64,000 nucleotides of DNA from positions 2,108,001-2,172,000 of the forward strand of contig NZ_CP041198.1 of the NCBI RefSeq assembly GCF_006517815.1, in the 5' to 3' direction. A program made the position numbers and the translations under genes. Source of the DNA: Pseudarthrobacter sp. NIBRBAC000502770. Its GTDB lineage: Bacteria > Actinomycetota > Actinomycetes > Actinomycetales > Micrococcaceae. Below the pieces are notes generated by a model, which was not told the origin of the DNA, ran no database searches, and saw only the letters and a list, made by a program, of their open reading frames with translations. This document shows positions 8,453-58,118 of the stretch, in pieces (the stretch's first letter is position 1; every line of letters begins with the position of its first letter).

Positions 8453-9925
8453 TCAGGCTCCCATGTCGCGGTTCAGCAGGTCTTCTTCGGTTTCCCCGCG
8501 GACAATCAGCCGGGAAGATCCGTCGCGCACCGCGACAACGCCCGGCCGGGCCAGATAGTTGTAGTTGCTCGAGAGGGCCCAGCAGTAGGCGCCGGTTCCC
8601 GGTACAGCAAGCAGATCACCGGCTGCCACGTCCTCGGGCAGATATACATCTCTAACAACTATGTCGCCGCTCTCGCAATGTTTGCCCACCACGCGGGACA
8701 GCTGCGGGGCGGCGCCGGACGTCCGCGAGGCCAGGACGGCCGAATAATCCGCGTCGTACAGCACCGGGCGGGCGTTGTCGCTCATGCCGCCGTCCACCGA
8801 AACATACCGGCGGGGATACGTAACGTTGTTGCCCGCGTCACCGTCGCCGGAGGTGCCGGGTACGTCCACGCGGACCGTCTTCAGCGTGCCCACTTCGTAC
8901 AGCGTGAAGGTGGTGCTGCCCACGATGGCGCGTCCCGGTTCGATGGAGATGCGCGGCGCGTCGATGCCCAGCTCGGCGCAGGTGGAACGCACGACAGCGG
9001 CCATCGCGTTGGCGATCTCCGCGGCGGGGCGGGGGGTGTCCACCGGCGTGTAGGCGATCCCGTAGCCGCCGCCAAGGTCCAGTTCCGGCAGGGTGATGGA
9101 GTACTTTTCCTGCATGGCGGCCAGGAAGCGCAGCAGTTTCTCGGCGGCCAGCGCAAACCCGTCCGGCTCGAAGATCTGGGAGCCGATGTGGCAGTGCAGG
9201 CCCAGCAGCTCGATGCCAGGATGCGCTGATGCGGCTGCCACCGCTTCCTCGGCAGCGGAGATCCCGGCTTGATCGGTGGTATCGGCAGCCATCGAGAGGC
9301 CGAACTTCTGGTCCTCGTGGGCGGTGGCGATGAATTCGTGCGTGTGGGCATGCACGCCGGGGGTGAGCCGCAGCATGACCTTCGCCTGCTCCCCGCGACC
9401 CTGCGCGATCGCGCCGACCCGCACGAGCTCATCGAGGCTGTCCACCACGATCCGCCCCAGGCCCATGTCAAGCGCCCGGTGGATCTCGCCGTCGGACTTG
9501 TTGTTGCCGTGCAGGGCTACGTCCGCGCCGGGAATTCCGGCCCGGTAGGCCACGGCGAGTTCGCCGCCCGAGGCCGTGTCCAGCCGCAGCCCTTCTTCCT
9601 CCACCCAGCGCACCACCGCGGTGCAGAGGAATGACTTGCCGGCGTAGTACACATCCACTCCCCCGCAGATATCCGCGAAGGCGTCATTAAAGGCGTCGCT
9701 GAATGCCCTGGCGCGGGCACGGAAGTCGTTCTCGCTCATCACGAAAAGCGGGGTCCCGTATTGCCGCTGCAACTCGCTGACGGGGATGCCGCCGATGCTG
9801 AGTTCACCGTCCCCGTTGCGTGCTGCGTCGCCGGCCCACATCGGTTCGTGGAGGGCATTGAGGTCATCCGGAACGGTAAGCCATTCCGGGGCAAGCGGAG
9901 ATCCCTGTGCTGCTGCGTGCGTCAT
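8453..9925 (-). CDS. lysA: Diaminopimelate decarboxylase
   Basis: LysA decarboxylates meso-diaminopimelate to lysine, the last step of lysine synthesis. The 490-residue PLP enzyme of the alanine-racemase fold has the PLP lysine in VYYAGKSFLC near residue 72, the HCHIGSQ motif (LLGLHCHIGSQ), the glycine-rich LDLGGGYGIAY, and the C-terminal CESGDIV and GAYCWA motifs with the catalytic cysteine. It starts five bases after argS, an arrangement long known from Corynebacterium, and precedes hom. The product is somewhat longer than the E. coli enzyme because of an N-terminal extension of about 40 residues. Confidence 0.95.
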   Translation of the reverse strand: MTHAAAQGSPLAPEWLTVPDDLNALHEPMWAGDAARNGDGELSIGGIPVSELQRQYGTPLFVMSENDFRARARAFSDAFNDAFADICGGVDVYYAGKSFLCTAVVRWVEEEGLRLDTASGGELAVAYRAGIPGADVALHGNNKSDGEIHRALDMGLGRIVVDSLDELVRVGAIAQGRGEQAKVMLRLTPGVHAHTHEFIATAHEDQKFGLSMAADTTDQAGISAAEEAVAAASAHPGIELLGLHCHIGSQIFEPDGFALAAEKLLRFLAAMQEKYSITLPELDLGGGYGIAYTPVDTPRPAAEIANAMAAVVRSTCAELGIDAPRISIEPGRAIVGSTTFTLYEVGTLKTVRVDVPGTSGDGDAGNNVTYPRRYVSVDGGMSDNARPVLYDADYSAVLASRTSGAAPQLSRVVGKHCESGDIVVRDVYLPEDVAAGDLLAVPGTGAYCWALSSNYNYLARPGVVAVRDGSSRLIVRGETEEDLLNRDMGA

Positions 9926-48005: not shown

Positions 48006-48167
48006 GGCGCACCTCCGGCTTTGAGTGCCGCTTCCGGCTGTTCCGTGCCCTCTGGGGCCCCTACGGGAATCAACGGTGAACGGCCTGGATCCAGTCCCGT
48101 CGCGGCTACGCCTTGGGTGAACGCCCCAGCAGTGCACACCCGCGCTCCAGGCCCTAGGATCGGTACC

Positions 48168-48632
48168 ATGGCTGATTCCGCTGGTGGGTCTCGAACAGAA
48201 GTGCTGAATCCCGATGAATGCTGGCGGTACCTTCGGTCCTCATACATCGGCCGGCTGGCAGTCATCAATGGTGACGTTCCCGAGATTTTTCCGGTCAACT
48301 TTTCCGTTGCCGGGGAATCGCTGGTGTTCCGTACCGCGCCCGGCACCAAGCTGCGCGCCCTGCTCAGCGGCGCAGTCGCGGCACTCGAGGTGGATGGACT
48401 GAACCCTTACGCCACGGAAGTCTGGAGCGTGGTGGCTAAGGGCAAGCCGGAAGAATTCGATGGGACCCGGATGACGCTCCCCGACTCCGATGCCGACCGC
48501 GAGCCGTGGGAGCCCGGGATCAAGGACCACCTGGTAGCTTTGACCCCCACGGAGCTCACCGGACGGCGGTTCGCCGTCAGGTCCCGGACACGGTGGTGGC
48601 CGCCGGTGGACTTCTCCGCAGACTGGCTGTAG
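48168..48632 (+). CDS. Pyridoxamine 5'-phosphate oxidase-family flavoprotein (first of three)
   Basis: The 154-residue split-barrel protein likely binds a flavin or F420. Its opening CWRYLRSSYIGRLAVINGDVPEIF (in part SSYIGRLAVINGDVPEIF) is closely like those of the two related genes in this region, and it has the FRTAPGTKLRAL loop near residue 63. A -10-like TAGGAT lies at 48155-48160, so the ATG at 48168 may be the first base of the mRNA. I found no GGGCC-type box at the expected distance, unlike the related genes. Function unknown; several such proteins belong to the mycobacterial DosR regulon. Confidence 0.83.
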   Translation: MADSAGGSRTEVLNPDECWRYLRSSYIGRLAVINGDVPEIFPVNFSVAGESLVFRTAPGTKLRALLSGAVAALEVDGLNPYATEVWSVVAKGKPEEFDGTRMTLPDSDADREPWEPGIKDHLVALTPTELTGRRFAVRSRTRWWPPVDFSADWL

Positions 48633-48644
48633 CGGTGGCCGGAT

Positions 48645-49700
48645 TCACGCCGTGATGATCACTTTGAGGGCCTTGGTTTCGGCAGCCCGGGAAAAGGTGT
48701 CGTAGGCGTCAAGGAACTGATCGAAACCAAAATGGTGCGTGGCGAATTTCTCCGCCCTGATCTTTCCCTGGGCCACCAGCTTGAGCAGCATGGGCGTCGT
48801 GTTGGTATTCACCAGCCCCATGCTGATGCTGATGTTTTGGATCCACAGGTTTTCCAGGTGCAGCTCCACGGGTTTTCCATGCACCCCGACGTTCGCCACC
48901 GAACCACCGGGCCGTACGATGTCGGTGCACATGCCAAATGTTGCCGGCACGCCAACAGCTTCAATGGCCACATCGACTCCCTGTCCCCCTGTCAGGGCCA
49001 GGACCTGTTCCTTCCAGTCACGGCTGCCTGACAGGACCGTGTCCGTGGCGCCAAACTCCTTTGCCTTCTCCAGGCGGTTGGCGTCCAGGTCGATGGCCAC
49101 CACCGTAGCGGCGCCGTACAGCCCTGCTGTGGTGATCGCCGCCAGTCCCACCGGCCCGGCACCGACCACGGCCACGGTGTCGCCGGGCTTTACCCGGCCG
49201 TACTGGACGCCGATTTCGAATCCCGTGGGGAGGATATCGGAGAGCATGACGGCCTGTTCGTCGCTGACGCCGGCAGGCAGCAGGTGCAGGGAATTTTCGG
49301 CATAGGGCACCCGGACGTACTCCGCCTGGGTACCGTCAATGAGGTGCCCGAAGATCCATCCCGTGCCTTCCTGGCCCTCGCCGCCCAGGCAGTGCGAGTA
49401 GAGTCCGGCCTTGCAGTTGGCACAGTGGCCGCAGGACTTGATGCACGAGATGATGACACGGTCGTTCACGTTTAGCCCCGTCACGGAAGGCCCGGTTTCC
49501 ACGATGGTTCCCACCCCCTCGTGGCCCAGGATCCGGCCTTTTTCGACGGCGGGCACGTCACCTTTGAGGATGTGCAGGTCGGTACCGCAGATGGTGGTGG
49601 TATCGATTTTGACAATGACGTCGCCGGGTTGCTGGATCCGGGGGTCCGGAACATCCGTCCATGACTTGTTGCCGGGTCCGCCGTAGACGAGGGCTTTCAT
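48645..49700 (-). CDS. Zinc-dependent alcohol dehydrogenase
   Basis: The 351-residue medium-chain dehydrogenase has the catalytic zinc site in ICGTDLHILKG and RILGHEGVG, a structural site with four cysteines in CIKSCGHCANCKAGLYSHC, and the NAD-binding AVVGAGPVGLAAI near residue 173. The pattern is that of class III-like bacterial ADHs acting on small alcohols. From the ATG at 49700 it lies 115 bases after the membrane-protein gene, so both could share one leftward transcript. It overlaps nothing. With the other ADH in this cluster it may reoxidise NADH when oxygen is short; that is inference. Confidence 0.87.
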   Translation of the reverse strand: MKALVYGGPGNKSWTDVPDPRIQQPGDVIVKIDTTTICGTDLHILKGDVPAVEKGRILGHEGVGTIVETGPSVTGLNVNDRVIISCIKSCGHCANCKAGLYSHCLGGEGQEGTGWIFGHLIDGTQAEYVRVPYAENSLHLLPAGVSDEQAVMLSDILPTGFEIGVQYGRVKPGDTVAVVGAGPVGLAAITTAGLYGAATVVAIDLDANRLEKAKEFGATDTVLSGSRDWKEQVLALTGGQGVDVAIEAVGVPATFGMCTDIVRPGGSVANVGVHGKPVELHLENLWIQNISISMGLVNTNTTPMLLKLVAQGKIRAEKFATHHFGFDQFLDAYDTFSRAAETKALKVIITA

Positions 49701-49815
49701 GCGTTTCTCTTTACTGTGGGGGACGGCTTTTCGAGGGTTTGCCGGCCGGAGCGCTCGGATTGCTGAGGGATGGGTTGGGAGCCGGCGGCAGCTGCTGCCA
49801 GTGGATTCACGGCCT

Positions 49816-50589
49816 TCAGTTTGGCCAGATGCAGGCTTCCAAGCACCAGGAAGAGCCCGAGAGCCCAAGTGCGGGAAGGAAGGCGGCCAGGCTTGGTTCT
49901 GCACCGAAGAGGGGTTTGACCAGTTCACCCACCGCCAGGGAGAAGATGAGGGTGAAGCCGAGGACGTACAGGGCCGGGAGAAGCAGCAGACCCGTACGGT
50001 GGTTCCGGTACGTGAGGAAGGCAAGGATCAGGAATCCGGGCATGATGAAACAAAGGTCCAGGATGAAGATCGAGTAGAGGGAATCGATTTGTTCGCCGCT
50101 CCGCATGAGGGGCAGGAGCATGCCAATCCACAGGGGGTAGAAGATGAGCGGCTGAAGGATGGCGCCGGCTGCTGAAGCAATCCTGGGTGCACGAGAAAGG
50201 GAGACGGATGGCGCGTCGCGGGCCACGGTGGCCCCGGCGGTGACCAAGGCCCAGAATGACAGGGCGAAGACTGCCATGTAGAGCAGGTACAGGCCGTTGT
50301 AGGTCCGCTCAATGACATAAATCCCGTAGGCGTAGAAGAGGTAGCCAAGGAGTCCCAGGGCCACGATCTGGAATTTGGCCCTCTGGGGCCTTGCCGCATA
50401 CGACAGGTACAGCAATCCGAGCCCGGCCGCCACTGACAGCAGGTCCTGGGAGTAGGCGCCGGGGACCAGGTCGGGGGCCACCACGCGGTTGTAGATTCCA
50501 GGGCGCCAGACCCCGGTTGCCGCAGCAGCCAGCGCCAGCAGTCCGGCGACGGCCCACAGCACGCGGTTGAGGAACAAGTGCGTCAGCAT
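49816..50589 (-). CDS. Multispanning membrane protein of unknown function
   Basis: The 257-residue product has about seven hydrophobic segments (for example VLWAVAGLLALAAAATGVW, LYLLYMAVFALSFWALV, FIMPGFLILAFL, LYVLGFTLIFSLAVGEL). The ATG at 50589 has GGGAGGT upstream; an open frame extends further but is less hydrophobic. I do not recognise the family. It is divergent from the PPOX gene at 50740 with two GGGCC-type sites between them, so it may belong to the same regulon. ADH follows downstream. Confidence 0.72.
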   Translation of the reverse strand: MLTHLFLNRVLWAVAGLLALAAAATGVWRPGIYNRVVAPDLVPGAYSQDLLSVAAGLGLLYLSYAARPQRAKFQIVALGLLGYLFYAYGIYVIERTYNGLYLLYMAVFALSFWALVTAGATVARDAPSVSLSRAPRIASAAGAILQPLIFYPLWIGMLLPLMRSGEQIDSLYSIFILDLCFIMPGFLILAFLTYRNHRTGLLLLPALYVLGFTLIFSLAVGELVKPLFGAEPSLAAFLPALGLSGSSWCLEACIWPN

Positions 50590-50663
50590 GGCCACCTCCC
50601 GCAGGAAGATCAGGGTTTCCCGGGTGTTCCCACAGCGTCCCATTAGGCCGCCCCGGGCCCCAA

Positions 50664-50677
50664 GGGCCATTGGTCCT
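50664..50677. promoter_or_regulatory. GGGCC-type palindromic site 1 (DosR-like box)
   Basis: The site reads GGGCC-ATTG-GTCCT. It is one of four like sites in this cluster. It lies between the divergent membrane-protein and PPOX genes. A leftward -10-like GACGCT (50634-50639, minus strand) would give a start near 50627, putting this site about 43.5 bp upstream. It is also 26 bp from site 2, on the same helix face within about half a turn. Confidence 0.6.
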
Positions 50678-50689
50678 GCCCTTGACGCC

Positions 50690-50703
50690 GGGCCTTTGTG
50701 CCC
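50690..50703. promoter_or_regulatory. GGGCC-type palindromic site 2 (DosR-like box) and PPOX promoter
   Basis: The site reads GGGCC-TTTG-TGCCC. A -10 TACGCT follows at 50727-50732, and the PPOX ATG at 50740 coincides with the predicted transcription start. The site centre is 43.5 bp upstream of that ATG, the class II activator position used by DosR in mycobacteria. No separate -35 is visible. Confidence 0.68.
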
Positions 50704-50739
50704 TTTCCCGATGCCGAAGAGTTGCCTACGCTGTGCCCT

Positions 50740-51210
50740 ATGACTGACAAATCAAACGTACCCGTGCCGGAAATCCTCGACCCTGAAGAGTGCTGGGACC
50801 TCCTGGGCCAAACCGGGGTGGGACGGCTCGCCGTCATCGCCGATGGCCACCCCGACGTGTTTCCCGTCAACTTCAAGGTTGATGGTGACACGCTGGTTTT
50901 CCGCACCGGGTCAGGAACCAAGCAGCAGGCCATCCAGTCGGATGCCACGGTGGCCCTGGAAGCAGACGCCGTCAGTTCGCAATTCGGGCTTGCGTGGAGC
51001 GTCGTCGTTAAGGGCAAGGCTGCCGAGACAACACCCACCGGACCCGACCTGGATGACATCCGGCGCGCCTTGTTCCCCTGGCAGGGCGTGGGCCAGGAGT
51101 ACTTCATCCGGATTACACCGGAGTCGGTGACGGGCAGGCGCTTCACGATGAACGCCCCGCTGCTGTGGCAGGCCCCGCTGGACGAGGCAACCCGCGCCGG
51201 TCTCGAGTAG
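50740..51210 (+). CDS. Pyridoxamine 5'-phosphate oxidase-family flavoprotein (second of three)
   Basis: The 156-residue split-barrel protein has [20 protein letters not shown] (in part [18 protein letters not shown]) near residue 22, an [13 protein letters not shown] loop near 61 and [14 protein letters not shown] near 135. I place the start at the ATG at 50740 because it lies at the expected transcription start, giving a leaderless mRNA; upstream in-frame ATG 50698 would sit before the -10. An ADH gene follows at 51255 and is probably co-transcribed. Cofactor could be FMN, FAD or F420. Two GGGCC-type sites lie upstream. Confidence 0.85.
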
Positions 51211-51254
51211 GCGGCCCGGACCGGCAGGTGCGCAGGTTCCAGGCAGGAGATTCA

Positions 51255-52265
51255 GTGCGTGCATGGTGGGTAGGCGAGCCCGGTCCCATGTCCACCCGCC
51301 CGCTGGTCCAGGGGATCCGTGCAGTTCCCAGGCCTGCGGCCGACGAGATACTGGTGGACGTGACCGTCTGCGGTGTGTGCCGGACCGACCTCCATCTCGC
51401 CGAAGGTGACCTCTCCCCGCGGCGCCCCCACGTGGTGCCGGGGCATGAAGCTGTCGGAGTCGTGGTCGAAACCGGAGCGGATTGTTCCCGTTTCGCGGCA
51501 GGCGACAGGGTTGGCGTGGCTTGGCTGGGTGGCGTTTGTGGCAGCTGTGCTTACTGCCGCCGCGGCGACGAGAATCTGTGCAGGTCACCGGTGTTCACGG
51601 GCTGGGACAGGGATGGGGGCTATGCCGAGCAACTGGTTGTCGCGGAGGATTTCGCCTACCCGGTGCCAGCTGGCTTCACTGACGAACAGGCCGCGCCGCT
51701 GCTGTGCTCGGGGATCATCGGATACCGGGCCCTGAAGCGTGCGGCCCTGCCCGTTGGCGGGCGCCTTGGCATCTACGGTTTTGGCAGCTCCGCGCACATC
51801 ACCGCCCAGCTTGCCATCAAACAGGGTGCCTCCGTGTTTGTCATGACCCGGTCTGACAGTGCCCGGTCCCTCGCCCGGGAGTTGGGAGCCGACTATGCGG
51901 GGGACGCTTATGATGAGCCGCCGGTACCCCTCGATTCCGCGATTCTTTTCGCACCGGTGGGAGAACTTGTCCCGGCCGCGCTGCGCGCCCTGGACAGGGG
52001 TGGAACCCTCGCCATCGCCGGAATCCACCTGAGCGACATCCCGGCCCTCAATTACAGCAGGGAACTCTACTACGAACGTCAGGTGCGGAGCGTAACAGCC
52101 AATACCCGGGCTGACGGGCATGAGTTCCTGACTCTCGCAGCCAGGCTGTCCCTGGCCCTCACCACGACGACCTACCCGTTCGACGCAGCAGACAAGGCCC
52201 TCGACGACCTGGCCGCCGACAGGATAACCGGTTCAGCGGTCCTCCGGGTCCGGGCGGAACGGTAG
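51255..52265 (+). CDS. Zinc-binding alcohol dehydrogenase (AdhA-like)
   Basis: The 336-residue medium-chain dehydrogenase begins at GTG 51255 with AGGAGA upstream. It has [15 protein letters not shown], the GHE motif in VVPGHEAVG, a structural zinc site in [15 protein letters not shown], and the NAD-binding [14 protein letters not shown] near residue 175. The C-terminus has [19 protein letters not shown], which I associate with the AdhA-like group in mycobacteria. It follows the PPOX gene by 44 bases on the same strand. The substrate is unknown; ethanol or other fermentation alcohols are possible. Confidence 0.87.
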
Positions 52266-52289
52266 GCTCTGCTCAACAGGTCCCCTGCC

Positions 52290-53315
52290 TCATCCAAACA
52301 GGACAGCGGCCTCCTCGTACCGTGCTTCAGGGACCACCTTCAGTTCTCCCAGCGCTTCCCCCAGGTCAACATTGACTATGTCCGTACCACGCAGCGACAC
52401 CATGGTGCCCCATCTGCCGGCGGCTGCCGATTCGACAGCGGCCAGCCCCAGCCTGGTGGCAAGGACCCGGTCGAAGGCCGTAGGTTCGCCGCCACGCTGA
52501 ATGTGGCCCAAAACGGTGGCGCGCGTTTCGATGCCGGTCCGTGTCTGCAGTTCCCCTTCGAGCAGCAGGCCGATCCCTCCCAGTCGCGGCCGCCCAAAAG
52601 TATCCAGGCCACGGGGTGCGTAGGGTGCTTGGTGACCCTCGGGAGCGAAGGCCTCGGCCACCACCACAAGGGGAGCCCGGCCTCGGTCCCGGGCTGACAG
52701 TACCCACGAACATATTTGGTCCAGGGACACCGGATGTTCAGGTATCAGGATGGCGTGCGCGCCCGACGCCATGCCGGAATGCAGTGCTATCCAGCCGGCA
52801 TTCCTGCCCATGACCTCTGCGACCATGCACCGGTGGTGCGATTCGCCAGTAGTCCGGAGGCGGTCGATGGCTTCTGTGGCAGTCTGGACCGCGGAATCAA
52901 AGCCGAAGGTGTAGTCCGTGGCACCGAGGTCATTATCGATGGTCTTTGGGACACCCACCACATTGATGCCCTGCCCGCACAATTCCCGGGCAGCTGCCAG
53001 TGTCCCCTCTCCCCCAATGGCAATCAGGCCGTCCAGTTCGTGGCGCCGGACGCAGGCGCGGACCCCTTCGATCCCCTTCCCCACCAACGGATTGGTCCGG
53101 GACGTGCCCAGGATGGTTCCGCCCAGGCGGGAGATACCGCGGACACTCGTCCGGGGCAAAGGAAAAACGTCCTGCTCCAGGACACCCCGCCACCCGTCCC
53201 GGAACCCGATGAATTCGTAGCCATGCGCCACGTCTCCGCCCAGCACGGCTCCCCGGATGACCGCGTTGACGCCGGGGCAGTCACCGCCGCTGGTGAGGAT
53301 GCCCAGCCGCTTCAC
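52290..53315 (-). CDS. 6-Phosphofructokinase, actinobacterial G104/K124 type
   Basis: This group A phosphofructokinase makes fructose 1,6-bisphosphate from fructose 6-phosphate. The 341-residue product has LTSGGDCPGVNAVIRG at the N-terminus and the catalytic TIDNDL motif. Two residues that tell the phosphate donor are visible at E. coli numbering: Gly104 in GGEGT, the ATP form, and Lys124 in PKTIDND, more common in PPi enzymes. Gly104 with Lys124 is found in ATP-using actinobacterial PFKs, so ATP is likely. The ATG overlaps the stop of the HAD-GH65 gene (ATGA), so the two are translated together. Confidence 0.92.
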   Translation of the reverse strand: MKRLGILTSGGDCPGVNAVIRGAVLGGDVAHGYEFIGFRDGWRGVLEQDVFPLPRTSVRGISRLGGTILGTSRTNPLVGKGIEGVRACVRRHELDGLIAIGGEGTLAAARELCGQGINVVGVPKTIDNDLGATDYTFGFDSAVQTATEAIDRLRTTGESHHRCMVAEVMGRNAGWIALHSGMASGAHAILIPEHPVSLDQICSWVLSARDRGRAPLVVVAEAFAPEGHQAPYAPRGLDTFGRPRLGGIGLLLEGELQTRTGIETRATVLGHIQRGGEPTAFDRVLATRLGLAAVESAAAGRWGTMVSLRGTDIVNVDLGEALGELKVVPEARYEEAAVLFG

Positions 53316-56300
53316 GGCACCACCACCCCCGCAGCGCGGGCAGGGAGCGGGAAGTGGCGGGTCTGCCCGGCGGGAAGGAACTCGTCATTGCCATGGACCC
53401 GTACCTTGATGGGGCCGGCGTCACCTGGAGCGGAGGCGATACTCATATCCCCGCCCTTGAGATGAATGCGGAGGCGGTGCCCGCGGTAGAGGACCTCAAA
53501 AGCAACGGCCCGCAGCCCGGTGGGGAGGTTGGGGGCAAACAAGATGGTGTCGCCGCTGAACCGCAGCCCCGCAAAACTGCGCTGCACTACGTCGATGGTT
53601 CCAGCCATCGCGCCCAAATGGATGCCCGCGCGCGTGGTGCCATGCTGGGTATCGTCGAGGTCGGCGTCGAGCGCTTCCCGGAAGCTGTCCCACGCCCGGT
53701 CCGCGTCCAGGCCGGCCAGGACCGATGCGTGCGCAACCCGGCTCAGTGTGGAGCCGTGGGCCGTCCGGGCAAGGTAATACTCGACGGTCCGGTTGAGCTG
53801 TTCGTGCGTGAACCCGTAGCCCAAGCGCTGCAGCACGGTGACCAGCCCATCGTGTCCCAGGAGGTACGGGAGCATCAGGACATCCGCCTGCTTCGCCAGT
53901 TTGTAATGGTTGGTGGCGTCGTCTTCTGCCTCGAGGATCAGGTCCAGCCGCTCAATGTCGCCATAGGTGTCCCGGTAATGGTCCCAGTCAAGTTCCTGCA
54001 GATCCCCGTAACCAGCAAACTGGCTGATGACACCGTCGCTGTGAAAGGGCACGTACATCAAGGTCCCCAAACGCTCCCACCCGGCCGCTTCCGCATCCGT
54101 GACGCCAAGGCGGTCCATCAGCCCCGCGCGCTCGCTGCCGTGCAGGAATGAGAGGATGCCTGCTGCCTGGGAGCAAACCCAGGCGGCCATGACGTTCGTG
54201 TACGCGTTGTCATCCAGGCCCGGTTTGTCACGGTACGGGTAGCCAGTATGGTATTCATCCGGTCCCACCACGCCCCGCACGTGGTACCTGCCGCCTGTCT
54301 CGTCGTACTCCGCCAGGGAGCAGAAGAAGCGGGCAACTTCAACCACCAGCTCAGCACCCTTCTGCAGAAGCCAGATCTTGTTCCCGGTGGTCTGGAAGTA
54401 CTGCCATGCGTTGAAGGCGACGGCCAGGCCGGAGTGCACCTGCAGATGCGAATAGTCCCGGACCCATCTGCCGGACCTGTCGTTGTACAGCCATTTCGGG
54501 GTTTCCTCGCTCCCGTCGCTGCCGCTTTGCCAAGGAAACTTTGCTCCCTCCTGCCCGGCCAACGATGCTGCATGCCGGGCCGCGGGCAGCCTGCGCCACC
54601 GGTAGTCGAGTACCGAGCGGGCAATATCCGGAGTTCGTGAAGTCAGCACCGGAAGGACAAACAGCTCATCCCAAAAGACGTGGCCGCGGTAGCCCTCGCC
54701 ATGGAGTCCGCGTGCCGTCACGCCGGCATCCAGTTCCGCCGTGTGGTGGGTCAAGGTCTGCAGCAGGTGGAAGATATGCAGGTTAAGGACCATGCGCACG
54801 GGCAGCGGGGCGTCAATCTCCACCAGGAAAGGTCGGAGCTCACGCCGCCAGGCCTCCTCGTGGGCGGCGAGCAGCACATCGAAATCCCCGGGCGCGCGCT
54901 CAAGCACTGAACGGGCACCCGTTTCGGGCGAGGAGATGGCACGGTCGCGGGAGGTCACCACCGCCACTGACTTGGTGATCCGCGCCGTGGTACCGGTTTC
55001 AAGGGAAACCGGCAGGGTCTGGAAATGGAAGGCTCCGATCGCGCCCCCGGTAATGTGTGCGGCGGCCGGCGAGACCTGCGTCCGGTAGGCCACGGCGATG
55101 CGGATGAGGCTTTGGGTGGTTTCAACCTCAACGACGGAGGTACCGTCAGGGCGCACCTCCGGGTCCGGGCGCTGCGGGGCCGTCTTGTCGGCCAAGTGGA
55201 CATCGGAGCCCTGGGCACGCTCGGGGAGGTTCGCGTTGCGGACTCCGGCGTCAATTCCGCTGCGGACCTCCACCATGCCCCTCCAGCCCAAGGCCGTGAT
55301 CGCCGTCTGAAGGACCAGCAGGTGAGGCTCGGCCATGGATGCAAATCGTGTCTGCACCACCTCCAGGCGCCGCCCGTCGGCACCTTCCAGCAACAGCCTT
55401 CGCTCCAGCACCGCTTTTTTGAGGTCCAGGACCCTGCGCTCGCGGACGACGTACAGCCCGCCCGCAGACCACCATTCCTGCCCGGCCAGGCGCAGGTCAA
55501 GCGGAAGGCAGTTGGGCGCGTTGACCATGTGTTCTTCCAACAGCATCTCGTCGGCGGACTTCGCCCTGACCCGGTTGTAAATGCCGGCGAGGTACATGCC
55601 TGCGTAGCTGTACGGACCGCCCTCGGGGGCCGCTCCACGAACGCCCAGGTAGCCGTTGCCCAGGGTGGTCAGGGCCTCCCGGTGTCCTTCGTGCCCGGCG
55701 TCAAAACCTTCAAACACAAGGTGCCAGGCATTGCCGATCACCTGGCCCAGGTCCAGCTCGCCCACATCGTTGAGGACAGTGTCCGCCCCCGCGGCTTCAA
55801 GCTGGCGGCGGTTCCCGGCCCGGTCGATTCCCACCACCAGGCCAAAACCGCCGCGCCGCCCGGCCTCGACACCAGCGGCCGAATCCTCAATCACCACGAC
55901 ATGTGACGGACTGACGCCAAGCCTTGCTGCGGCAGCCAGGAAGACGTCAGGGGCAGGCTTTCCCTGCAGCCCAAGCCCTGCCGCCGTCGTCCCGTCCATG
56001 ACGACGGTGAAGAGATCCTGGACGCCCGCTGCTTCCAGGACCGATGCCGCGTTTCGGCTCGAGGTGACAACGGCCATGGGCACTGCAGCCTCGGTGAGCC
56101 GGCGCAGCAGCTGCAGGGTCCCGGGGTAGCTTTGGACCCCGTCCCGCCGGAGATGTTCCAGGAACAGCTCGTTCTTCCACTGGCCCAGGCCGAATCCTGT
56201 CCAGGCACCGGCTTCATCTGTTTCGTGCCCCTTCTCAAGAAGCACTCCCCTGGCTGCCAGAAACCGCACCACTCCTTCCTCGCGCGGCATGCCGTCGATA

Positions 56301-56500
56301 TAGGTGAGGTAGTCGGCCCTGCTGAGCGGGGCACGGTCGGTGCCCCGCGGAATCCTGGGGTCGTGCAGGATCCGGGCGAACGCGTCCTTCCACGCTGCCT
56401 GATGCAGCAGTGCCGTGTTGGTGACCACCCCGTCCAGGTCGAAGATGACGGCGTCAAACGGTGGCTTGGCAGCGGCAGCGGCGGTGGGCGACGCAATCAT
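53312..56500 (-). CDS. HAD phosphatase/beta-phosphoglucomutase fused to GH65 glycoside phosphorylase
   Basis: The 1062-residue product joins two enzymes. Residues about 1-235 form a HAD domain of the beta-phosphoglucomutase type, with DLDGVVTN (Asp21 nucleophile, Asp23) and late VVIEDSAAGVEAGRRGGFG near residue 195 (in part IEDSAAGVEAGRRG). Residues about 250-1060 form a GH65 enzyme with general acid Glu749 in GPDEYHTGYPY. GH65 enzymes split trehalose, maltose or kojibiose with phosphate to beta-glucose 1-phosphate, which the HAD part could turn into glucose 6-phosphate. The PFK gene follows with an ATGA overlap. Mycobacterial OtsB1 has a related architecture. The disaccharide is not determinable from sequence alone. 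The ATG at 56500 appears leaderless. Confidence 0.9.
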   Translation of the reverse strand: MIASPTAAAAAKPPFDAVIFDLDGVVTNTALLHQAAWKDAFARILHDPRIPRGTDRAPLSRADYLTYIDGMPREEGVVRFLAARGVLLEKGHETDEAGAWTGFGLGQWKNELFLEHLRRDGVQSYPGTLQLLRRLTEAAVPMAVVTSSRNAASVLEAAGVQDLFTVVMDGTTAAGLGLQGKPAPDVFLAAAARLGVSPSHVVVIEDSAAGVEAGRRGGFGLVVGIDRAGNRRQLEAAGADTVLNDVGELDLGQVIGNAWHLVFEGFDAGHEGHREALTTLGNGYLGVRGAAPEGGPYSYAGMYLAGIYNRVRAKSADEMLLEEHMVNAPNCLPLDLRLAGQEWWSAGGLYVVRERRVLDLKKAVLERRLLLEGADGRRLEVVQTRFASMAEPHLLVLQTAITALGWRGMVEVRSGIDAGVRNANLPERAQGSDVHLADKTAPQRPDPEVRPDGTSVVEVETTQSLIRIAVAYRTQVSPAAAHITGGAIGAFHFQTLPVSLETGTTARITKSVAVVTSRDRAISSPETGARSVLERAPGDFDVLLAAHEEAWRRELRPFLVEIDAPLPVRMVLNLHIFHLLQTLTHHTAELDAGVTARGLHGEGYRGHVFWDELFVLPVLTSRTPDIARSVLDYRWRRLPAARHAASLAGQEGAKFPWQSGSDGSEETPKWLYNDRSGRWVRDYSHLQVHSGLAVAFNAWQYFQTTGNKIWLLQKGAELVVEVARFFCSLAEYDETGGRYHVRGVVGPDEYHTGYPYRDKPGLDDNAYTNVMAAWVCSQAAGILSFLHGSERAGLMDRLGVTDAEAAGWERLGTLMYVPFHSDGVISQFAGYGDLQELDWDHYRDTYGDIERLDLILEAEDDATNHYKLAKQADVLMLPYLLGHDGLVTVLQRLGYGFTHEQLNRTVEYYLARTAHGSTLSRVAHASVLAGLDADRAWDSFREALDADLDDTQHGTTRAGIHLGAMAGTIDVVQRSFAGLRFSGDTILFAPNLPTGLRAVAFEVLYRGHRLRIHLKGGDMSIASAPGDAGPIKVRVHGNDEFLPAGQTRHFPLPARAAGVVVP

Positions 56501-56506
56501 AGGACA

Positions 56507-56549
56507 TTGCTACCAGCAAGCAGGACTTCAGCAAAGGGCCGATGGGCCC
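56507..56549 (-). promoter_or_regulatory. Leaderless promoter with GGGCC-type site 3 (DosR-like box)
   Basis: The palindromic site GGGCC-GATG-GGCCC (56536-56549) is centred exactly 42.5 bp before the A of the HAD-GH65 ATG at 56500. A -10 TAGCAA (minus strand, 56512-56507) occupies positions -12 to -7 relative to that A. No ribosome site precedes the ATG. This is the layout expected of a class II activated, leaderless promoter. Confidence 0.72.
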
Positions 56550-56557
56550 TCCACCCG

Positions 56558-57022
56558 CTAAGCCGTGTCCCTGGCCGCCGTCTCCCCTACATGGTTCCAC
56601 CACGTCAGCGGTGATGTGATGACGAAGCGCCGGCCTGTGACGGAGGTGGGGACGATGCGGACGAAGTGGTCCTTCTCTCCCGCCTGCCAGGGAAACAGCG
56701 TCAGGGCGGCTCCCGCCAGGAGTTCCTGGGTGGGCTCCAGGATGACGGCCTTGCCTTTGACCAGCACGCTCCAGGCTTTTGAGTCGTCGTGGCCGTCTGC
56801 TTCAAGCGCGACGGCGAGTGGTCCCCCGGCGGCCCGCAGCTTGGTTCCTTCCCCGGTGCGGAAGACAACTGATTGCTGGTCCACTTTGTAATTTACGGGG
56901 AAAACTTCCGGATATCCGTCCACCAGCACAGCCAGGTGGCCAACAGACACTCCATGCAGGAGGTCCCAGCACGTGGCGGCGTCCAGGACTTCAGTAGGCA
57001 GTTGTGCCGGGTCGTTGTGCAT
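56558..57022 (-). CDS. Pyridoxamine 5'-phosphate oxidase-family flavoprotein (third of three)
   Basis: The 154-residue protein has LLHGVSVGHLAVLVDGYPEV (in part SVGHLAVLVDGYPEVFPV) near residue 20, an FRTGEGTKLRAAG loop near 61 and VTGRRFVITSPLTWW near 130, all in step with the other two copies. It is closest in pattern to the second copy. It lies upstream of the HAD-GH65 gene with its own promoter and GGGCC-type box; the fusion also has a box, so both are independently controlled. ATG 57022 appears leaderless. Function unknown. Confidence 0.85.
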   Translation of the reverse strand: MHNDPAQLPTEVLDAATCWDLLHGVSVGHLAVLVDGYPEVFPVNYKVDQQSVVFRTGEGTKLRAAGGPLAVALEADGHDDSKAWSVLVKGKAVILEPTQELLAGAALTLFPWQAGEKDHFVRIVPTSVTGRRFVITSPLTWWNHVGETAARDTA

Positions 57023-57028
57023 GCCTTG

Positions 57029-57072
57029 ACGATAAGGGCGGGTGCGGCCGACCCGCTAGAGCCCTTAGGCCC
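57029..57072 (-). promoter_or_regulatory. Leaderless promoter with GGGCC-type site 4 (DosR-like box)
   Basis: On the minus strand the site reads GGGCC-TAAG-GGCTC (57072-57059) and is centred 43.5 bp before the ATG at 57022. A -10-like TATCGT (57034-57029) lies at -12 to -7 relative to the ATG. No ribosome site precedes the start codon. Confidence 0.65.
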
Positions 57073-57203: not shown

Positions 57204-57571
57204 GGTGGAGATGGGGGGAATTGAACCCCCGTCCGATGTCGTGTTGTCAGGGCTTCTCCGGGCGCAGTTTGCGTCGGATTTTCTCGGCCCCAGCCATGCT
57301 GCAAACAGCTGGCTGATCCGGGCCCAGTCACCTAAAAGTCCCGTTTACTCCGATGACGGGAGCAAACAGCAGTGGCTATCTAAATGACGCCAGGATCCGG
57401 GGCGATAGCAACCTCGGGCTGACGGACTGTCTTACTGCTTAGGCAGCAAGAGCGAAGTCAGTGCGCTTAGAATTGGCACTTATTGGTTTGCAGACAGCGT
57501 TTACGAGATAAATCTGCATCCTCGGCCCGCTTCACCTGTCGCGACTAACATCGTCGAAACCGATCATCCCC
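57204..57571 (-). ncRNA. ssrA: Transfer-messenger RNA (tmRNA)
   Basis: This RNA frees stalled ribosomes and tags the incomplete protein for destruction. The tRNA-like ends pair: 5' GGGGATG with 3' CATCTCC, and the T arm reads GGGGGTTCAATTCCCCCC. Near the 5' end GGTTTCGACGATG is conserved. The tag frame starts at a GCC resume codon and reads ANSKRTDFALAA then TAA, an actinobacterial-type tag ending in ALAA for ClpXP recognition. smpB, its protein partner, lies 74 bases upstream on the same strand. The exact 3' end is uncertain by two or three bases. Confidence 0.95.
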
Positions 57572-57644: not shown

Positions 57645-58118
57645 CTAGCGGCGCCGGTTGCGCTCCCGCATCTCGCGCTGCGCCTCACGGTTGTCCTGCT
57701 GCTCGCGCAGGGTCTGCCGCTTGTCGTACTCCCGCTTGCCCCGGGCAACCGCGATTTCCACCTTGGCCCGGCCGTCGACGAAGTAGAGCTGCAGCGGAAC
57801 GACGGTGTACCCGGCCTCCTGGACTTTGCGGGAGATCTTGATGAGTTCCTCGCGGTGCAGCAGCAGCTTCCGCCGCCGCCTGGCGGCATGGTTGGTCCAG
57901 CTTCCCTGGTTGTATTCGGGAATGTGGATCGCTTCCATCCACAGTTCGTCGTTATAAAAGGTGCAGAATCCGTCCACCATGGAGGCATGCCCCTCGCGCA
58001 GGGACTTCACTTCGGTGCCCATCAGCGCGATGCCGGCCTCGTACGTGTCCAGCACGTGGTAGTCATGCCGGGCCTTGCGGTTGGTGGCCACCACCTTACG
58101 GCCACTTTCTTTCGGCAC
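57645..58118 (-). CDS. smpB: SsrA-binding protein SmpB
   Basis: SmpB binds tmRNA and places it in the ribosomal A site. The 157-residue product shows NRKARHDYHVLDTYEAGIAL in part (NRKARHDYHVLD), LREGHASMVDGF near residue 41, and a basic C-terminal tail ending REMRERNRRR. It uses a GTG start at 58118 with GAGGAG upstream. It is followed by ssrA on the same strand. Nothing unusual is seen. Confidence 0.96.
   Translation of the reverse strand: MPKESGRKVVATNRKARHDYHVLDTYEAGIALMGTEVKSLREGHASMVDGFCTFYNDELWMEAIHIPEYNQGSWTNHAARRRRKLLLHREELIKISRKVQEAGYTVVPLQLYFVDGRAKVEIAVARGKREYDKRQTLREQQDNREAQREMRERNRRR

Follow-up and report, generated by a model that had tools for sequence, protein, structure and literature searches.

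The closest described counterparts of the promoters considered here are found in the DosR (DevR)-DosS/DosT system of Mycobacterium tuberculosis and the OsdR/OsdK system of Streptomyces coelicolor. The mycobacterial DosR box is given as GGGACTTNNGNCCCT, with GGGAC as its half-site (PMC6448022), the proximal Dev box is reported to overlap the -35 element (PMC3029386), and leaderless mRNAs are described as common in mycobacteria (PMC8022548). Genes listed under DosR in M. tuberculosis include Rv2006 (trehalose/maltose hydrolase otsB1), ctpF and hspX (PMC2867773), whilst the PPOX proteins Rv0080 and Rv3129/Fsq are counted amongst the members of the dormancy regulon, with Fsq of M. smegmatis (MSMEG_5243) being described as a flavin-sequestering member by which flavin adenine dinucleotide (FAD) is protected in hypoxia (PMC13284343). 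For OsdR of S. coelicolor, a consensus of AGGGCCGATCGGCCCT is reported with support from electrophoretic mobility-shift assays (EMSA), and the targets named include narGHJI2, universal stress proteins, a pyridoxamine-phosphate-oxidase-like protein and a zinc dehydrogenase (PMC5069765). Herein we consider a 64,000 nt stretch of the genome of Pseudarthrobacter sp. NIBRBAC000502770 (contig NZ_CP041198.1, positions 2,108,001 to 2,172,000; hereafter the window), in which genes for PPOX flavoproteins and for a HAD-GH65 fusion protein are preceded by a shared box. Judged from its sequence, this PPOX/HAD-GH65 locus is very probably part of an oxygen-responsive regulon of the DosR/OsdR type.

The genes of the cluster are as follows.

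50740 to 51210, plus strand: PPOXa, a Pyridox_ox_2 flavoprotein gene, predicted to be leaderless
51255 to 52265, plus strand: ADH2, a zinc alcohol dehydrogenase (ADH) gene, 44 bp after PPOXa
52290 to 53315, minus strand: a PfkA-type phosphofructokinase (PFK) gene, with a 4-bp overlap with the end of the HAD-GH65 gene
53312 to 56500, minus strand: a HAD (beta-phosphoglucomutase-like)-GH65 fusion gene, 1062 aa, predicted to be leaderless
56558 to 57022, minus strand: PPOXb, a Pyridox_ox_2 flavoprotein gene, predicted to be leaderless

The box in the window is nearer to the published Streptomyces OsdR consensus than to the mycobacterial one, in that its half-site is mostly GGGCC rather than the GGGAC given for mycobacteria. 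Likeness to OsdR/OsdK extends, within the targets named for that system, to the kinds of gene held in common (narG, universal stress protein, PPOX and zinc dehydrogenase genes). What sets the present promoters apart is the near-fixed box-to-ATG spacing at predicted leaderless starts, their most distinctive trait, together with the HAD-GH65-PFK unit; binding of the box is a prediction here. Likeness to DosR-DosS/DosT lies in a regulator and a sensor that are close in sequence and retain key residues, and, amongst the DosR genes listed, in the boxed HAD-GH65 gene as a parallel to Rv2006 and in the P-type ATPase and Hsp20 genes of the island around dosR; unlike in M. tuberculosis, the sensor gene is convergent with that of the regulator, and narG itself is a candidate target. 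The domain order of Rv2006 is presumably the same as that of the HAD-GH65 protein. Whilst Fsq belongs by its published description to the same protein superfamily, cofactor and function of the PPOX proteins here are read from sequence similarity, and this one genome carries several PPOX paralogues (five matches). The best solved-structure match for both PPOXa and PPOXb is 6eci (108 and 84 bits, respectively), which is presumably Fsq of M. smegmatis. The overlap with known regulons bears out the first-pass annotation of this DNA, made from the letters alone, which had likened the gene kinds to those of the DosR regulon. Amongst the papers listed by a literature search, which left subscription journals mostly outside, none describes a regulon of this kind in Arthrobacter or related genera.

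Boxes, promoter register and conservation

A pattern scan with the box motif GGGCCNWWGKKCYY returns exactly four exact matches in the window, at 50664, 50690, 56536 and 57059, precisely where the first-pass annotation had placed four near-palindromes.

50664 to 50677, plus strand: distal box GGGCCATTGGTCCT, 26 bp upstream of the PPOXa proximal box
50690 to 50703, plus strand: PPOXa proximal box GGGCCTTTGTGCCC, centred 43.5 bp before the ATG at 50740; footprinted
50727 to 50732, plus strand: -10-like TACGCT, 7 bp before the ATG at 50740; kept in relatives
56507 to 56512, minus strand: -10-like TAGCAA, 6 bp before the ATG at 56500
56536 to 56549, no strand assigned: HAD-GH65 box GGGCCGATGGGCCC, a near palindrome centred 42.5 bp before the minus-strand ATG at 56500; footprinted
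57029 to 57034, minus strand: -10-like TATCGT, 6 bp before the ATG at 57022
57059 to 57072, minus strand: PPOXb box GGGCCTAAGGGCTC, centred 43.5 bp before the ATG at 57022; footprinted

The spacing claimed for three promoters, with box centres 42.5 or 43.5 bp before an ATG, is reproduced by measurement (43.5, 42.5 and 43.5 bp); the accompanying -10-like hexamers are likewise present, 6-7 bp before the ATG. The box at 56536 is exact on the plus strand and carries one mismatch on the strand of the HAD-GH65 gene, and the TAGCAA of this promoter is the weakest of the three -10 elements, with relatives displaying TAGCACT, TACCACT and similar sequences at HAD-GH65. By eye, no clear Shine-Dalgarno sequence precedes the ATGs at 50740, 56500 and 57022. 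If the predicted leaderless starts are correct, box centres 42.5-43.5 bp before the ATG would make the boxes overlap the -35 region. Only as downstream operon genes could ADH2 (51255) and PFK be reached by a box; ADH2 is probably co-transcribed with PPOXa, given the 44-bp gap, and the 4-bp overlap suggests that PFK and HAD-GH65 probably form one operon.

Conservation was assessed from 29 loci of named organisms fetched for relatives of HAD-GH65, amongst which the order PPOXb-GH65-PFK-ADH2-PPOXa holds for 10 Arthrobacter/Pseudarthrobacter loci, with a further three (L046, L047 and L049) showing rearrangement. Footprints were drawn at the three promoters, each from the window and these 13 relatives (14 sequences). 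Pairwise identity in the box columns is 0.84 for GH65, 0.82 for PPOXb and 0.87 for PPOXa, compared with 0.57, 0.44 and 0.55, respectively, in the spacer and 0.39, 0.33 and 0.38 upstream of the box, placing the box second, first and second amongst 60 windows compared. The box-to-ATG distance is constant within about two bases across relatives, and a second box resembling that at 50664 occurs at PPOXa in six of the 13 (both by eye). Two of the footprinted relatives, Pseudarthrobacter sp. Fe7 (complete chromosome) and GA104 (4.8-Mb contig), encode DosR, at 97 and 87 %, respectively. The GH65 footprint leaves out five loci from Microbacterium, Agromyces and Agrococcus (L050, L051, L052, L054 and L058), as these are ~54 % identical and have no upstream box; the Nocardia loci L059 and L060 also lie outside it, the latter with one site scoring 18 at 9710, ~290 bp upstream. 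Amongst the five omitted loci, the DNA upstream of the GH65 gene (before 10001) is nearly identical by eye, which suggests recent transfer.

The contention that such a register is unlikely to arise by chance is borne out by position; the number of matches, considered below, is not enriched. Across the whole genome the motif as first proposed also matches exactly at 11 places beyond the window. Two of these, upstream of an Lgt-like gene and of narG, share the box/-10/ATG register, where other offsets would lead one to expect 0.015. At a universal stress protein gene (L006) and a DNA-glycosylase-like gene (L013), boxes lie near the start with a poor or absent -10 element, and these were kept as possible. 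A refined 15-bp pattern, drawn from the footprints and scanned with one mismatch allowed, gives 71 genome hits (148 for the reversed control), or 63 distinct sites once palindromic pairs are merged. Eight of the 63 fall in the leaderless register (offsets 41-44), compared with a mean of 0.088 and a maximum of 2 over 137 other four-base windows, a test that is not independent for six of the eight because pattern and -10 rule were set with the window promoters and footprints already in view. These eight precede PPOXa, PPOXb and HAD-GH65 (the three promoters annotated at the outset), narG, the Lgt-like gene and PPOXd (three known before the pattern was fixed), and two new genes. The latter are regulon candidates: the box at G000:C2:3194010 (L219) precedes the gene of a 272-aa protein, and that at 3453392 (L222) the gene of a transporter-looking protein of 466 aa.

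The DosR-type regulator and its distribution

Fourteen GerE-domain matches occur in the genome, and the NarL/LuxR-type DosR homologue that had been looked for is present at G000:C2:1808715-1809389, with 225 bits to M. tuberculosis DevR (3c3w) versus 124 for the next solved protein. It consists of receiver and GerE domains, retains the phospho-Asp and Lys104 positions, and carries a recognition-helix motif, AEKTVKNYVS, that matches the DevR alignment and recurs in 28 of 30 relatives' loci (one was not parsed and one is without it); no NCBIfam model matches the protein at cut-off. Convergent with dosR is a DosS/DosT-type GAF-HisKA_3-HATPase kinase gene (~1809405-1811087, G000:C2), the product of which finds its best solved relatives in DosT (188 bits) and DevS (185 bits). 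This sensor retains residues aligned with the haem-ligating proximal His149 and with the distal Tyr171, the roles of which are taken from PMC4082495, and is predicted from its sequence to bind haem. The surrounding island contains universal stress protein genes (two Pfam-confirmed), a fourth PPOX gene, PPOXd, the ATG of which has a box 42 bp upstream, and genes for a P-type ATPase, Hsp20 and a phosphoenolpyruvate-synthase-like protein. Eight of the genome's 63 refined-pattern sites lie within 20 kb of dosR, where 0.57 would be expected.

Two DosR-like paralogues are also encoded, with 55 and 47 % identity, respectively. The first (G000:C2:539471-540067; L029, L231) adjoins its own DosS-like sensor; its recognition helix is altered (TEAVVGASVS) and its acidic pair includes an Asn. 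The second (G000:C2:2891719-2892351; L028) is an orphan with a degenerate receiver, lacking the usual acidic pair and Lys, in which the AEKTVKN helix is kept.

Within the family, dosR was found in 38 of 120 genomes sampled (E-value of 1e-40 or better). Consensus matches number 95 in the 38 DosR-positive and 41 in the 82 DosR-negative genomes, with 171 and 185, respectively, for the reversed control. Since the larger size of DosR-positive genomes makes the control counts unequal too, the pattern/control ratio was used, and this stands at 0.56 with DosR and 0.22 without (Fisher P 1.3e-5). In DosR-positive genomes, 24 of 86 merged boxes have a dosR-like gene within 20 kb, compared with an expectation of 1.3. 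Upstream of PPOX genes, a box 40-46 bp before the start is present at 21 of 33 DosR-positive places versus two of 17 DosR-negative ones (P 0.0007) at a score of 15.5, a threshold picked after the scores had been seen; at 16 the counts are 20 and 1, and at 17 they are 14 and 1. These places were sampled from 86, comprising all 17 that are DosR-negative and 33 of the 69 that are DosR-positive, of which 22 are amongst the 30 best-scoring with loci and 11 were picked before their DNA was read. At both boxed DosR-negative places a Shine-Dalgarno-like sequence is present, and a -10 in register is missing. Inspected by eye, the 17 DosR-negative places comprise 12 with TANNNT 6-7 bp before the ATG, four with a Shine-Dalgarno-like sequence and one with neither. 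In G009, a DosR-negative member of the same genus, there are no consensus sites and no PPOX box, yet TANNNT is retained. At narG, where best-site scores do not separate the two sets, the best site is in register, by eye, in five of 20 DosR-positive and none of 10 DosR-negative loci.

Proposed mechanism and rival explanations

The DosR-type reading of the first-pass annotation is supported by the regulator and sensor, the register, its conservation, the clustering of boxes at dosR and their relative scarcity in its absence. In the mechanism that we infer, a fall in oxygen would lead the haem-GAF sensor kinase of DosS/DosT type to phosphorylate the DosR-type, NarL-family regulator, which in turn would occupy the box of 14-15 bp that has its centre near -42.5, on RNA polymerase's -35 side. 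The first transcribed base would be the A of the ATG or an immediate neighbour, yielding leaderless mRNAs of PPOXa-ADH2, HAD-GH65-PFK and PPOXb, and, elsewhere, from narG, the Lgt-like gene and PPOXd. A sensible reading of the products is that they may protect flavin and reroute sugar and redox metabolism whilst respiration is limited. Tentatively, and with the odds somewhat against it, DosR control could in this family be a plug-in module, in which leaderless promoters acquire or lose a box of 14-15 bp at a constant -42.5 position and are otherwise unchanged, with the two further DosR-like proteins perhaps modulating the switch; this idea arises because DosR-negative genomes, G009 amongst them, keep TANNNT at 12 of 17 PPOX places, yet without the box. 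Were DosR control of the locus correct, the dormancy switch of mycobacteria and Streptomyces would be at work where the regulator comes and goes (38 of 120 genomes), providing a comparative system outside pathogens for regulon gain, loss and rewiring, and a tidy model for activator-driven leaderless transcription.

A number of observations weigh against membership in such a regulon. Matches to the box are no more frequent than controls: the window holds 54 at up to two mismatches versus a shuffle mean of 91, the whole genome 15 exact matches versus 31 for the reversed pattern, and even in DosR-positive genomes the motif falls below its reversed control (95 vs 171). Six of the 11 exact sites outside the window (L002, L003, L005, L011, L014 and L015) have no promoter register, and are treated as background for that reason; 55 of the 63 refined-pattern sites also lie out of register. 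Moreover, the refined pattern and the -10 rule (T at position 6 or 7) were fixed after the window promoters and footprints had been seen. The box upstream of dosR itself has one mismatch and lies ~111 bp before the ATG, outside the -42.5/ATG register. Amongst relatives, 12 of the 33 DosR-positive PPOX places are without a box, best-site scores at narG promoters are alike in DosR-positive and DosR-negative loci (P 0.9), and the DosR-positive set includes four genomes with distant homologues only (G042, G069, G089 and G107). Finally, within the span first quoted for the regulon (48168 to 57072), the box is shared by PPOXa, HAD-GH65 and PPOXb, but not by ADH1 or PPOXc, the latter (ATG 48168) showing no box by eye either in the window or in eight relatives.

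The raw counts are what might commend the boxes as chance palindromes of a G+C-rich genome, an explanation that register, footprint and clustering at dosR contradict to the point of leaving it scarcely credible. Kinship amongst genomes is ignored by the co-occurrence statistics, a weakness of the case for DosR that would suit a box belonging to an unrelated regulator, e.g. of the CRP/FNR kind, linked to DosR merely through shared genome ancestry. Moreover, other anaerobic regulators often control narG and ADH genes. Such an origin is nevertheless very improbable, as boxes cluster at dosR genes within genomes, whilst the DosR-less G009 of the same genus has neither consensus sites nor a PPOX box. 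The consensus also agrees with that reported, with EMSA support, for OsdR (PMC5069765). Closer to DosR control, though still unlikely, is that a paralogue, be it 539471 with its own sensor or the orphan 2891719, reads the box in place of the main DosR or alongside it. Both proteins exist at appreciable identity, the orphan keeps the AEKTVKN motif, and the 539471 gene has three of the 63 sites within 20 kb, where 0.57 would be expected. Against this, the recognition helix of 539471 differs and the receiver of 2891719 is without its acidic pair and Lys, and the main dosR shows the strongest clustering of sites (eight of 63), with none of the 63 near 2891719.

Neighbouring genes and minor observations

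Three further genes lie on the PPOXa side of the cluster.

48168 to 48632, plus strand: PPOXc, a third PPOX gene, 43 % to PPOXb, with a -10 TAGGAT at 48155
48645 to 49700, minus strand: ADH1, a zinc ADH gene without a box
49816 to 50589, minus strand: a membrane protein gene divergent from PPOXa, with a Shine-Dalgarno-like GGGAGG

PPOXc and ADH1 are probably not members of the regulon, and were left out of it because neither has a box; the -10 of PPOXc at leaderless distance (48155-48170) recurs in relatives. The membrane protein has no Pfam match, and its ATG lies 81.5 bp from the centre of the box at 50664; control by this box is uncertain. At its other end, the cluster is bordered by a transfer-messenger RNA (tmRNA) gene (57204-57571, minus strand), near which lies, by eye, an SmpB-like open reading frame (ORF) at 57645-58118. 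Elsewhere in the genome (G000:C2:1284151; L033:6152 onward), an exact box and a -10-like CATGCT precede an ORF of 39 codons which looks, by eye, like the beginning of a PPOX gene, and this is possibly a decayed target that has retained its promoter.

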